Source: Terriglobia bacterium
GTDB lineage: Bacteria > Acidobacteriota > Terriglobia > Terriglobales > Acidobacteriaceae
Direction of reading: 5' to 3'
DNA: 64,000 nucleotides
Assembly: GCA_020073565.1 (NCBI GenBank)
Contig: JAIQEY010000002.1
Location: forward strand, 1-64,000
The notes under the pieces are model-generated. The model did not search any database, was not told the DNA's origin, and worked only from the letters and a program-made list of their open reading frames with translations. Positions 36,590 to 40,051 of this stretch are shown here, in pieces (position 1 is the first letter of the stretch; every line of letters starts with the position of its first letter). Made by a program: the position numbers and the translations under genes.

Positions 36590-37135
36590 ATGGCCTCCGT
36601 GGTTGGCGCCTACGCCCGGGCACTCGCGGATGTCGTCATTGGAAGCAAACTCGATCCCGCGCGCATGCTGCAGGAACTGCACGCCACCGAGTTGCTGCTC
36701 GCGGAAAGCGATCCATTGCGCCGCGTTCTGGAAAATCCGTCGATTCCAGGAGACCGCAAGCGGGCCGTGCTCGATGCCATTGCCCAACGCATGGGAATGA
36801 CCCGCCAGGCAAGGAATTTCATTGCGGTGCTGACCGATCATCGCCGCTTGCCCCTGTTCTCCGACATCTTGAAGCAGGTTCAGCTGGAACTGAACGATCG
36901 CCTCGGTTTTGCCGAGGCCGAGGTAAGCAGCGCAAGAGCGCTAAGCGATCCAGAAAAACAGTTGCTCGAAGCCGAGATCACCAAGCTGACCGGCAAGCGC
37001 GTGCGTGCCCGCTATGCGCAAGACGCGTCCCTGATAGGCGGGGCAGTCGTGAAGGTCGGCAGCACGATCTACGACGGCTCCGTGGAAGGTCAGTTGGCAA
37101 GGATCCGAGAGCAGTTGGTGGAGACCAGCTTCTAG
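36590..37135 (+). CDS. atpH: ATP synthase F1 subunit delta
   Basis: A 181-residue F1 delta (OSCP-like) subunit linking the stalk to the alpha subunits. MASVVGAYARALADVV at the start is the typical first helix, and EAEITKLTGKRVRARYAQD with DASLIGGAVVKVGSTIYDGS at the end is the family's C-terminal signature. GGGAGG lies nine bases before the ATG. The last codons and the TAG stop lie within the first heptamers of the repeat that fills the spacer to atpA. Confidence 0.92.
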   Translation: MASVVGAYARALADVVIGSKLDPARMLQELHATELLLAESDPLRRVLENPSIPGDRKRAVLDAIAQRMGMTRQARNFIAVLTDHRRLPLFSDILKQVQLELNDRLGFAEAEVSSARALSDPEKQLLEAEITKLTGKRVRARYAQDASLIGGAVVKVGSTIYDGSVEGQLARIREQLVETSF

Positions 37136-37224
37136 CTGCTAGCTCCTGGCCTCTAGCTTGAATCCGGTGCACGGATTTAAAGCGCGAAACCGAGGCAAGA
37201 GCTAGAAGCCAGCAGCTAGTAGCT
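37127..37224. repeat. Heptamer tandem/inverted array, delta-alpha spacer
   Basis: The left arm has period-7 units of the type AGCTNCT: AGCTTCT, AGCTGCT, AGCTCCT, a degenerate GGCCTCT and AGCTTGA (37127-37161). The right arm has the inverted units AAGAGCT, AGAAGCC, AGCAGCT and AGTAGCT (37197-37224). A 35-base unrelated loop lies between. It starts inside the atpH stop region and ends seven bases before the atpA ATG. Confidence 0.85.
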
Positions 37225-37231
37225 GATTCAT

Positions 37232-38767
37232 ATGGCCCAAATCAAAGCAGACGAAATAACGCAATTAATCCGCGAGCAGATCGAAAATTACGAATCGAAG
37301 ATTGCGGTCGACGAGGTCGGCACCGTCATCACGCTGGGAGACGGCATTGCCCGCGTCTACGGACTCGACAAGGTAATGGCCGGCGAACTGCTCAGTTTCC
37401 CGCACGGCGTCGCCGGAATCGCCATGAACCTCGAAGAAGATCAGGTAGGAGTGGTCATCCTCGGCGAGTACACCGAGATCCAGGAAGGCGACGAGGTCAA
37501 GCGCACCGGGCGCATCATGAGCGTACCCGTCGGCGACGCTATGGTTGGACGCGTCGTCAACTCGCTCGGCCAGCCCATCGACGACAAAGGTCCGATCGCG
37601 ACCGACAAGTTCATCGCTCTCGAACGCATCGCCCCCGGCGTCATTGACCGCCGGCCTGTGCGCGAGCCCATGGCCACGGGTTTGAAGGCGATTGACAGCA
37701 TGATTCCAATCGGCCGCGGCCAGCGCGAGTTGATCATCGGTGACCGCCAGACCGGCAAGACCGCGGTCGCGCTCGACACCATCATCAACAACAAGGGCAA
37801 CGACCTGATCTGCATTTACAACGCGATCGGGCAGAAGCGGTCTTCCATCGCGCAGGTGGTGAAGATTCTCGAAGATGCGGGTGCGATGGAGTACACCATC
37901 GTGGTTGCCGCTTCGGCTTCCGAACCGGCTCCCATGCAGTACATTGCTCCCTATGCGGCGTGCGCCATGGGCGAGTATTTCCGCGACAGCGGACGCCACG
38001 CGCTTTGTATTTACGACGACCTTTCTAAACATGCTGCCTCGTATCGCGAGATTTCGCTGCTGTTGCGCCGTCCGCCGGGCCGCGAAGCCTATCCCGGAGA
38101 CGTGTTCTATCTCCACTCGCGACTGCTGGAGCGCGCCGCAAAGTTGAGCGACAAGAACGGTGGCGGATCGCTGACCGCACTCCCCGTGATTGAAACGCAG
38201 GCGGGCGACGTTTCTGCCTACATCCCGACGAATGTTATTTCGATCACCGACGGTCAGATCTATCTCGAAACCGACTTGTTCAACCAGGGCGTGCGCCCGG
38301 CCGTGAACGTAGGACTCTCTGTGAGCCGTGTCGGTGGCAGCGCGCAAATCAAAGCCATGCGGCAGGTCGCTGGAACGCTGAAGCTCGAACTCGCGCAATA
38401 TCGCGAACTGGCGGCATTCGCCCAATTCGGCAGTGATCTAGACAAAGCGACGCAGCAGCAACTCAACCGCGGCCAGCGCCTGGTGGAACTGTTGAAGCAA
38501 AACCAGTTCTCGCCGCTGCCCTTCTCGAAGCAGATTCTGATCATCTTCGCCGGCACCAGCGGCGTGCTGGATGATCTGCCGGTAGATCAGGTCCGGGAAT
38601 TTGAAAAAGAACTCTACAAATACGTAGACACAACCAATCCGGGCCTGCTGAAGACGATCATGGACAAGAAGATCCTCGACGACAGCCTGAAAGCCGACCT
38701 GTCAAGAGTGATCAAAGAAGCGAAGCAACAGTTTGTGGATGCAAGGCAAGCAGTAGCGAAACGGTAG
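37232..38767 (+). CDS. atpA: ATP synthase F1 subunit alpha
   Basis: A 511-residue alpha subunit of normal length. The N-terminal helix binds delta, followed by the beta-barrel ([20 protein letters not shown]). The nucleotide domain has Walker A GDRQTGKT near residue 170, and the catalytic Arg lies in the [17 protein letters not shown] region. It forms the non-catalytic nucleotide sites of the F1 hexamer. No Shine-Dalgarno sequence precedes the ATG; instead the right arm of the heptamer repeat ends seven bases upstream. Confidence 0.97.
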
Positions 38768-38837
38768 TTCTCAGTTCTCGGTTCTCAGTAAGGACTGGGC
38801 GCGAGGGGATTTTCCTGAGAACAGGGAACTGAGAACT
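38766..38837. repeat. Heptamer tandem/inverted array, alpha-gamma spacer
   Basis: Left arm: AGTTCTC, AGTTCTC, GGTTCTC, then partial AGTA (38766-38790). Right arm: GAGAACA, GGGAACT, GAGAACT (38817-38837), the exact inverted units. The first unit includes the last two bases of the atpA TAG, and the last ends four bases before the atpG ATG. Unit sequence differs from the arrays on either side. Confidence 0.88.
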
Positions 38838-38841
38838 GATT

Positions 38842-39933
38842 ATGCCCAACGTTCTCGACATCCGGCGCCGGATCCGCAGCGTGGTCAACACGCGGCAGAT
38901 CACCAAGGCTATGAAGACCGTCTCGGCGGCGAAGTTGCGCCGTGCGCAGGAAGGCGCGCTCGCGGCCCGTCCCTATTCGCAGATGTTGACGAACGTTCTG
39001 AAGTCATTGGTATCGCGCGCCGATGTCTACGATCCCATTACTGGAGAGCCGCGCCATCCATTGTTGGCAGAGCGCCCGGAGAAAACCATCCTGCTGATCG
39101 TCGTCACCGGCGACAAGGGGCTGGCGGGCGCGTTCAACACCAACATCCTGAAGATCGTTTCGAAGTTCATCGAGTCCAAGCCCGAGCAGAATATCGATGT
39201 CGAGTGCATCGGCCGCAAGGGCCGCGATTTCATGCGCCGCCGCTGTCCTGCGGCTCCGCTAAGAACTTCAGAAGATGGAGACACGGGTGCCCCGCCCGCG
39301 CAGCCAGGCACGGAAGCCGCTCCCCCGCGCGCCGGCCGCGTGCAGATCGTCGGCGAGCACGTTGGCATTCTCGGCAAGGTCGAACACAGCTTTGCTTCGA
39401 ATCTGGCCGGAAGCATCATCGAGCGCTACACGCGTGGCGAAATCGACGGTGTCTATATCCTGTACAACGAATTCAAATCCGTCATCGCCCAACGCCTGAT
39501 CGCCGAACACCTGTTGCCGATCAAGGAAATCGGCGTGGTCGATGTCCGCATGGCCGAAGAAGCGGAAGAAGAAGAGCGCAAACGCAGAATCGAAGCCGCG
39601 AAATCCGCCGGCGTAGGAATTCGCCCAGCTGACACGCACGCCGTAGACGAGGCTGCTGCCAAGTTCGGTGTTTCGCAGGTGGACTACATCTACGAGCAGC
39701 CGCCGGAACAGCTTTTCCACGAGATTCTGCCGAAATATTTCGGCATCCAGATTTTCCATGCGCTGCTGGAGTCGGTAGCGGCCGAGCACGCCGCCCGCAT
39801 GACCGCCATGGATTCGGCAACCAACAACGCGTCCGACATGATCGATTCGCTGACGCTGGTAATGAACCGCGCGCGCCAGGCCAAGATCACGAAAGAAATC
39901 ATCGAGATCGTGAGCGGGGCGGCAGCATTGTAA
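38842..39933 (+). CDS. atpG: ATP synthase F1 subunit gamma with insertions
   Basis: The rotor subunit, 363 residues against about 290 usually. The N-terminal helix (VLDIRRRIRSVVNTRQITKA, then MKTVSAAKLRRAQ) and the C-terminal helix (AARMTAMDSATNNASDMI) are standard. The extra length comes from two places. One is a Pro/Ala/Gly-rich insert of about 30-35 residues after RKGRDFMRRR (near 132-168: APLRTSEDGDTGAPPAQPG). The other is a longer charged segment EEAEEEERKRRIEAAKSAG near 235-255. Both lie in the globular part facing away from the alpha/beta barrel, so function is probably kept. Confidence 0.93.
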   Translation: MPNVLDIRRRIRSVVNTRQITKAMKTVSAAKLRRAQEGALAARPYSQMLTNVLKSLVSRADVYDPITGEPRHPLLAERPEKTILLIVVTGDKGLAGAFNTNILKIVSKFIESKPEQNIDVECIGRKGRDFMRRRCPAAPLRTSEDGDTGAPPAQPGTEAAPPRAGRVQIVGEHVGILGKVEHSFASNLAGSIIERYTRGEIDGVYILYNEFKSVIAQRLIAEHLLPIKEIGVVDVRMAEEAEEEERKRRIEAAKSAGVGIRPADTHAVDEAAAKFGVSQVDYIYEQPPEQLFHEILPKYFGIQIFHALLESVAAEHAARMTAMDSATNNASDMIDSLTLVMNRARQAKITKEIIEIVSGAAAL

Positions 39934-39937
39934 GGAA

Positions 39938-40051
39938 GCACTTAGCAATTAGCATTTAGCATTTAGCACTTAGCACTTAGTCCCTGATCGACATAGCCGA
40001 AGTCAGCAAGACCCAAGTTTGGCTAAGTGCCAAGTGCTAAATGCTAACTGC
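39938..40051. repeat. Heptamer tandem/inverted array, gamma-beta spacer
   Basis: Left arm: six uninterrupted units GCACTTA, GCAATTA, GCATTTA, GCATTTA, GCACTTA, GCACTTA (39938-39979). Right arm: TAAGTGC, CAAGTGC, TAAATGC, TAACTGC (40024-40051), the inverted units. The loop is 44 bases. It starts four bases after the atpG stop and is followed by GAGG and the atpD ATG. Confidence 0.9.

Follow-up and report, generated by a model that had tools for sequence, protein, structure and literature searches.

Inverted Heptanucleotide Arrays in the ATP Synthase Operon of a Terriglobia Bacterium and in Core Operons of Its Relatives

Arrays in the ATP Synthase Operon

The 64,000-nucleotide stretch of a Terriglobia bacterium analyzed here (contig JAIQEY010000002.1, positions 1 to 64,000; hereafter the window) carries an ATP synthase (atp) operon in which three spacers, atpH/atpA, atpA/atpG, and atpG/atpD, each hold a tandem array of 7-base units on the stop side and inverted copies of these units on the start side. 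We consider it probable, at roughly 60%, that these spacers carry inverted heptanucleotide arrays of a class spread across the genome, born and renewed at the DNA level, rather than a device of ATP synthase. The case rests on where such arrays lie, on a polar core common to their units, on the turnover of the units between species, and on the kind of mismatch found between paired arms. The features of the operon, all on the forward strand, are as follows.

36590–37135, + strand: atpH (delta subunit), open reading frame (ORF)
37127–37147, + strand: atpH/atpA stop-side array, unit TAGCTNC (core YYAG), from the period-7 scan and hairpin finder; overlaps the last atpH codons and the stop
37207–37225, + strand: inverted arm on the start side of atpH/atpA (core CTRR), with 6 bases between it and the atpA ATG; fold z −4.34
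37232–38767, + strand: atpA (alpha subunit), ORF
38766–38788, + strand: atpA/atpG stop-side array, unit AGTTCTC, from the strict scan, hairpin finder, and Tandem Repeats Finder (TRF; period 7)
38815–38837, + strand: inverted arm on the start side of atpA/atpG (unit GAGAACT), with 4 bases between it and the atpG ATG; fold z −5.31
38842–39933, + strand: atpG (gamma subunit), ORF
39937–39980, + strand: atpG/atpD stop-side array, unit GCACTTA/GCATTTA, 6.3 copies by TRF; the part at 39951–39980 is the inverted arm
40023–40052, + strand: inverted arm on the start side of atpG/atpD (unit TAAGTGC), with 15 bases between it and the atpD ATG; fold z −5.95
40068–41513, + strand: atpD (beta subunit), ORF
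41519–41923, + strand: atpC (epsilon subunit), ORF; the 5-base junction before it has no array

The initial annotation, made from the sequence of the window, had described heptamer arrays with inverted copies in these three spacers, and this description is confirmed: the layout is common to all three and the units differ. The arms paired by the hairpin finder are 37126–37144 with 37207–37225, 38766–38788 with 38815–38837, and 39951–39980 with 40023–40052. In a looser scan, the stop-side arrays of atpH/atpA and atpA/atpG start within the upstream gene, 9 bases inside atpH and 3 bases short of the atpA end, and that of atpG/atpD starts 3 bases downstream of atpG. The long hairpins that had been predicted are borne out by single-strand folding against dinucleotide shuffles (200 per spacer), as none of the 200 shuffles equals the native fold in any of the three spacers. 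Some of the measurements differ from the first estimates. Loops of 26–44 bases hold for atpA/atpG (26) and atpG/atpD (42), whereas the ungapped loop of atpH/atpA is 62 bases, with weaker pairing running on inside it; of the right-arm distances first given as 7, 4, and 16 bases, only the middle value stands. The 2-base atpF/atpH and 5-base atpD/atpC gaps are free of arrays, as had been noted. In a strict scan of the window, period 7 yields two arrays and periods 4–6 and 8–12 yield none; the atpH/atpA array passes the looser threshold only. Immediately after atpC, a GC-rich hairpin followed by a T-rich stretch (41938–41973) is possibly the intrinsic terminator of the operon.

Genomes, Loci, and Scans

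The genome of the window (G000; 6.1 Mb) was scanned over 856 kb, and that of a relative (G015) over a 400-kb stretch picked since it contains the atp operon. The window was itself picked for its finding, so the atp cases of G000 and G015 are not independent samples; the ribosomal-protein (rp) and nuo operons are independent. Relatives comprise Terriglobia, Acidobacteriaceae, and other Acidobacteria metagenome-assembled genomes. Their atp loci are the best 80 of 380 by AtpG match (L029–L108), with some spacers missing at contig ends or through unusable coordinates; L110–L123, where 9 of 14 loci have no gene coordinates (minus-strand matches being skipped), were left out. The rp and nuo sets are co-directional gene runs around rplB and nuoH, respectively, in ten genomes of the genus, and the genome set consists of 399 co-directional spacers of 45–400 bp from sampled stretches. 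Spacers of 45–400 bp were analyzed (up to 200 bp for folding), with no upper limit for the run counts of 175 rp and 63 nuo spacers given below. Genes were called by our own caller trained on these contigs, mostly G000, and some starts are visibly late (e.g., rp junctions 6 and 16). Turnover was measured in the rp operons of the ten genomes and in the atp operons of 34 of the 80 loci (L029–L062); the junction-by-junction comparison of rp operons covers junctions 12–15 in part.

Concentration in Core Operons

Among co-directional spacers of 45–400 bp, period-7 arrays are found in 88 of 167 in the rp set, 18 of 64 in the nuo set, and 97 of 202 in the atp set, as against 27 of 399 in the genome set; core operons thus have them four to eight times as often (28–53% of spacers vs. 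7%). The same spacers contain no period-6 array in any of the four sets, and period-8 arrays number 15 (rp), 0 (nuo), 4 (atp), and 7 (genome); shuffled spacers give 0–0.2. With spacers of at least 45 bp, the rplB run has arrays in 92/175 and the nuoH run in 18/63, compared with 22/323 co-directional spacers of G000 (rp, Fisher p 2e-30). The atp operon is likewise richer than its surroundings: at loci with AtpG identity of at least 66%, arrays occupy 73 of 141 atp spacers and 12 of 54 co-directional spacers outside atpH–atpC, and at more distant loci 24 of 61 and 1 of 37. In G015, period-7 hairpins are present in all four atp spacers (H/A, A/G, G/D, and D/C), and many atp spacers of relatives have no array.

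Outside the genus, spacer arrays are found in 5 of 20 rp operons (three from the family of the window's genome, two from other families), and four more have a period-7 hairpin with no detected array. Ten of the 15 array-free operons have median spacers of 6–28 bp; the other five have wide spacers (53–438 bp), and two of these five are poorly covered by the gene caller. A Pfam scan of 40 of 44 listed genes flanking arrays gives LpxD, FtsZ, phosphofructokinase, PurD, PriA, DNA polymerase III delta', SRP54, MurJ, and Nuo subunits, together with transporters, various enzymes, and unassigned genes, which amounts to an impression rather than a test.

Distribution among Spacer Types

In the 856 kb of G000, 35 of 42 period-7 arrays are intergenic, compared with 0/20 for period 6 and 14/16 for period 8. 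A stringent hairpin scan of the same sequence yields 17 period-7 hairpins (12 co-directional, 2 convergent, 2 divergent, and 1 inside an ORF call), and the 400 kb of G015 yields 13 (9 co-directional, 3 divergent, and 1 partial). No hairpin with a best period of 4, 5, or 6 appears in either scan; those with a best period of 8–12 number 28 in G000 and 3 in G015.

Arrays are not restricted to spacers that precede a start codon. In spacers of 45–150 bp, they occur in 23/252 co-directional cases (16/182 in G000 and 7/70 in G015, atp spacers included), 4/50 convergent cases (2/31 and 2/19), and none of the divergent cases (0/17 and 0/8). Among longer spacers of G000 and G015, respectively, the counts are 6/141 and 1/62 (co-directional), 2/34 and 0/12 (convergent), and 0/67 and 4/41 (divergent), and 2 of 27 convergent spacers in the atp loci of relatives have an array. 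Taking all period-7 hairpins whose surroundings permit a judgment, the median distance from arm to gene is 4 bases at stops (110 edges) and 14.5 bases at starts (112 edges). Arms thus lie nearer to stops and convergent spacers have arrays too, which shows that the array is not bound to starts; its good fit at the atp starts is a consequence of arrays filling whole spacers.

Not every array has an inverted partner. A search of the phylum with a single-heptamer pattern (GAGAACTGAGAACTG) returned 126 matches in 14 of 297 genomes (75 in G114 and 29 in G000), as against 6 for the reversed control, and is an underestimate of the range because units differ. The idea of genome-specific families of units was tried and is weak, with 14.5% vs. 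10.0% of pairs alike.

Unit Core and Polarity

A polar core is common to the heptamers of this lineage: YYAG in the left arm and CTRR in the right. When the left arms of 121 hairpins are aligned by expectation maximization, the consensus is N-Y-Y-A-G-Y-T, in which the G reaches 98% and the A 78%; the alignment scores 418, compared with 208–232 for column-permuted and 310–313 for polarity-randomized sets. The consensus has no G-tracts, and CCAG (CTGG on the opposite strand) is depleted (29 vs. 76 expected). Within the spacer, polarity hardly varies, in that CTR faces the downstream gene and YAG adjoins the upstream gene. When arrays are typed by this profile, start-side arrays with CTR and not YAG outnumber the reverse by 79:4 in atp, which contributed to the training set, by 60:2 in rp, which did not, by 12:0 in nuo, and by 15:0 in the genome set; the corresponding stop-side ratios of YAG without CTR are 66:5, 41:10, 5:4 (weak), and 18:2. 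Of the array spacers at atp loci (n = 110), 42 have arrays at both edges, 41 at the start edge only, and 27 at the stop edge only, and the rp spacers (n = 88) divide into 23, 38, and 27. Other cores are seen elsewhere in the phylum: in L244 and L246, two loci from other families, the inverted period-7 arrays have units such as GGATTGC, GAGGACT, and AAATGGT. The idea that CTRR serves to place stops in three frames is not general, since 51 of 177 start-side arms stop all frames and 29 stop none.

Turnover and Arm Matching

Across the genus, a given rp junction may contain differing heptamers, octamers (GGTTTCAA), irregular AT-rich arrays (TAATTTGTAATTG), palindromes resembling repetitive extragenic palindromic (REP) sequences, or nothing, and spacers at the same junctions in sister species can be empty or only 3–19 bp. 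Between species, units from one junction have a similarity of 0.646, compared with 0.557 between junctions, and 20% of 574 same-junction comparisons give alike units (at least 0.8). Of 991 same-junction hairpin pairs, 60 have loops that are 60% alike or more. Arm complementarity in 46 spacers averages 0.762 for a spacer's own arms, 0.621 for arms swapped at the same junction, and 0.550 for unrelated arms. The expectation that relatives have changed heptamers and conserved pairing therefore holds on average, as these values indicate. A suggestion that the element is self-extending also fits: in the orthologous atpA/atpG hairpin of L038, the loop is 81% identical to that of the window, and each arm has one additional 7-base unit.

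The edges of a spacer can also differ from each other, as the left and right arms do not match at some junctions. At rp junction 5 of L213–L217, an octamer-type array lies on the stop side and a heptamer array on the start side, so that the edges can bear unrelated repeats. In the 292-bp atpG/atpD spacer of L034, the entire heptamer hairpin is repeated three times head to tail.

Pairing at the RNA or DNA Level

Mismatches between the arms of 177 co-directional hairpins comprise 124 G.U and 129 A.C (p 0.80), compared with 11 G.U and 0 A.C in a control of 10 tRNAs. Folding of array spacers is not strand-specific, the sense minus antisense difference beyond shuffles being −0.51 for rp (p 0.3) and +0.11 for atp (p 0.5); a raw sense-strand advantage in rp and atp spacers was considered and is gone in array spacers after composition control. 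The equality of G.U and A.C and the lack of strand-specific folding indicate that the arms are not kept together by RNA selection acting pair by pair. This argues against such selection as the main reason for the arm match; a generic hairpin effect that is insensitive to single mismatches may still act. The atp spacers without arrays have a small sense excess (−0.96, p 0.017, uncorrected for the six groups tested, which did not include nuo). Where no period-7 array is present, the mean fold z is −2.69 in rp, −2.43 in atp, and −1.33 in genome spacers.

Other Inverted Repeats and Possible Signs of Mobility

Other arrays take a similar inverted form. Octamer-type arrays occur as inverted pairs at three loci of G000 (L009:10689-10776, L010:6675-6776, and L024:7828-7929). 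Irregular AT-rich arrays form inverted pairs as well (L019:15060-15161 and L020:17465-17561), and at rp junction 17 they replace the heptamer hairpins in L211, L213, and L215–L217. Arrays of CCTTYGTGNCC are inverted too (e.g., L024:5931-6005). REP-like palindromes (GTAGAGACGCGGCTTGCCGCGTCTC) are located between rp genes at junction 5 of L212, L218, and L219; an inverted repeat of the form GTCCC...GGGAC in the window (52584–52786) differs from them.

The loops of 30 elements have no convincing similarity between loci, the best match between two elements being 11 bases (E 0.005). At rp junction 17, the spacer of L218 is 19 bases long, compared with 87–109 in the other eight listed genomes. Y1 transposases are matched in all eight array-bearing genomes compared (G000, G015, G010, G037, G103, G114, G039, and G055) and in 7 of 12 others (Fisher p 0.055; counts, p 0.004). 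G000 has nine Y1_Tnp matches; such numbers may follow from genome size or from the separate REP-like palindromes, and a link to heptamers is tentative. Loss of SbcD as a permissive factor was also considered, and the comparison has no power (SbcD above the cut-off in 0/8 array-bearing and 2/12 other genomes, p 0.49).

Probable Origin and Possible Role of the Arrays

Since pair-by-pair RNA selection is disfavored, birth and renewal at the DNA level are favored. Slippage by 7 bases would add or remove units, and copying by fold-back (template switching) may make one arm the inverse of the other, such that both arms would be born in one DNA event and then renewed by slippage and fold-back copying with fast turnover. 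Overlapping junctions and short divergent spacers are mostly free of arrays, in our view probably because insertion there is selected against, and any effect of a strong inter-cistron hairpin on mRNA would be generic and not tuned to ATP synthase.

Several observations weigh against birth and renewal at the DNA level as a full account. Slippage alone explains neither the concentration in core operons (92/175 rp spacers vs. 22/323 in the window's own genome) nor the common polar core, which together suggest selection or transcription-guided formation. Pairing is usual and not obligatory, as 15% of the 46 own-arm pairs are less than 0.6 complementary; arrays are detected at both edges in just 42/110 atp-locus and 23/88 rp spacers; and the mirror order of unit variants is partial, with 74 of 89 hairpins beating unit-shuffled arms (mean 21.4 vs. 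19.2, with some finder bias). No fold-back event has been directly observed. In addition, full period-7 hairpins are found in 1/50 short convergent and 19/252 short co-directional spacers, and the replacement of one hairpin kind by an unrelated kind at the same rp junction resembles selection for a hairpin as such.

The last two points are shared by a reading to which we give a smaller though real chance, namely that any strong inter-cistron hairpin is favored in highly transcribed operons as generic punctuation, with arrays, octamers, and REP-like palindromes interchangeable and a benefit in mRNA protection, translation insulation, or the absorption of supercoils as cruciforms. The enrichment of rp, atp, and nuo spacers, the strong folds of rp and atp spacers even without a period-7 array, and the absence of arrays from all 25 sampled short divergent spacers are consistent with it. 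However, array spacers have neither a strand-specific folding excess nor a G.U bias, sister species have empty or very short spacers at the same junctions, and left and right arrays are unrelated at some junctions, such as rp junction 5. A bolder proposal, which we regard as rather unlikely, is that a dedicated transcription-guided process, perhaps enzyme-driven, writes outward-CTR heptamers at the spacer edges of the most transcribed operons and renews whole hairpins between close species, in other lineages too (Xanthomonas, Beggiatoaceae, and other Acidobacteriota families, with other cores). If true, the arrays would be a self-extending DNA punctuation of core operons.

The initial annotation had offered two further explanations. 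One, a device that tunes subunit stoichiometry, can be modeled on the translational coupling of Escherichia coli atpHA: the hairpin would sequester the next start, the terminating upstream ribosome would open it, and the arrays would set subunit ratios. In its favor, the left arm lies at the stop, the right arm comes to within 6, 4, and 15 bases of the next start codon, and the predicted folds are strong, but the same architecture occurs in unrelated operons, with rp operons as dense, and in some stop-to-stop convergent spacers (4/50 vs. 23/252 co-directional short spacers); the hairpin is absent at a given atp junction in many relatives, and no RNA-level pairing signal, such as a G.U excess, is present. 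We consider this explanation very improbable. The other, a mobile element family (miniature inverted-repeat transposable element, fold-back, or REP with its associated tyrosine transposase, RAYT) with heptamer arrays as its ends, is improbable. The filled and nearly empty sites at rp junction 17, the outward polarity of the ends, and the more frequent Y1 transposases in array-bearing genomes point toward it; against this, units differ between loci, the Y1 counts may track other properties of the genomes, as described above, and, with no loops common to different loci, an element that carries a body of its own is unlikely. The outcome named beforehand as arguing against a role in the operon, plain repeats spread evenly through all kinds of spacers, applies only by half, because the arrays cluster in core operons and their units have a polar core in common.

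Ribosome and ATP synthase operons are usually tightly packed and conserved. Here, repeats with a single fixed period rewrite the spacers of these operons from one sister species to the next, which provides a natural experiment on the birth of palindromes and tandem repeats, the preference for seven, and any role of inter-cistron hairpins in expression.

Comparison with Known Repeats

Among the matches listed in a search of the open literature, none concerns heptamer arrays of Acidobacteriota by title or abstract start. Cyanobacterial heptamer short tandemly repeated repetitive sequences are 7-base tandem repeats and, by description, resemble the present arrays in this respect. In most bacterial genomes, long simple repeats are described as being most often heptamers (Mrazek, 2007, cited in PMC4679880), Calothrix heptamers are mentioned in PMC4692102, and polymerase slippage by 7 nt has been proposed as a source of heptamers (PMC4679880).

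The GGGAATC arrays of Xanthomonas are mostly intergenic and genome-wide, form inverted convergent pairs (70 in Xcc and 75 in Xac), lie 28 nt from the 5' neighboring ORF vs. 160 nt from the downstream ORF, and favor co-directional and convergent over divergent gene spacers (Rehm et al., 2015; PMC4692102). Their 7-base units, intergenic location, and closely spaced inverted pairs are all present here. The Xanthomonas study, as far as it is drawn on here, describes one G-rich GGGNATC unit with possible quadruplex formation, whereas the arrays of this lineage have many YYAG-core units and no G-tracts, use both spacer edges, and are strongly concentrated in rp, atp, and nuo operons.

Direct repeats of TAACTGA are reported from Beggiatoaceae and some Cyanobacteria and Bacteroidetes, with 169 direct sets and one inverted set in the BOGUAY genome (MacGregor, 2015; PMC4679880). 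These tandem heptamers are placed just upstream of starts, also within ribosomal-protein operons, and have a CTGA core with the polarity of the start-side arms here; by our own comparison, their reverse complement fits the YYAG core. The right arms in the window lie similarly near to starts, but arrays in this lineage are located in convergent spacers too. TAACTGA is, as described, a single fixed heptamer and nearly always direct, whereas the present heptamers change and are often in inverted pairs; none of the window's units (TAGCTNC, AGTTCTC, and GCACTTA) is TAACTGA, although the genome was not searched for TAACTGA itself. REPs are described as palindromes of 20–40 bp with a GTAG or CGTC tag (PMC3733652). 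REPs and bacterial interspersed mosaic elements are likewise extragenic and hairpin-forming, and the heptamer arrays differ in having no shared body. The scattered reports from Xanthomonas, Beggiatoaceae, and Nostoc can be joined under testable rules: period 7, inverted layout, outward polarity, and transcribed spacers. New relative to the known kinds are the many units per genome under one polar core, their fast replacement with pairing kept on average, the interchange with other hairpin kinds, and the concentration in core operons.

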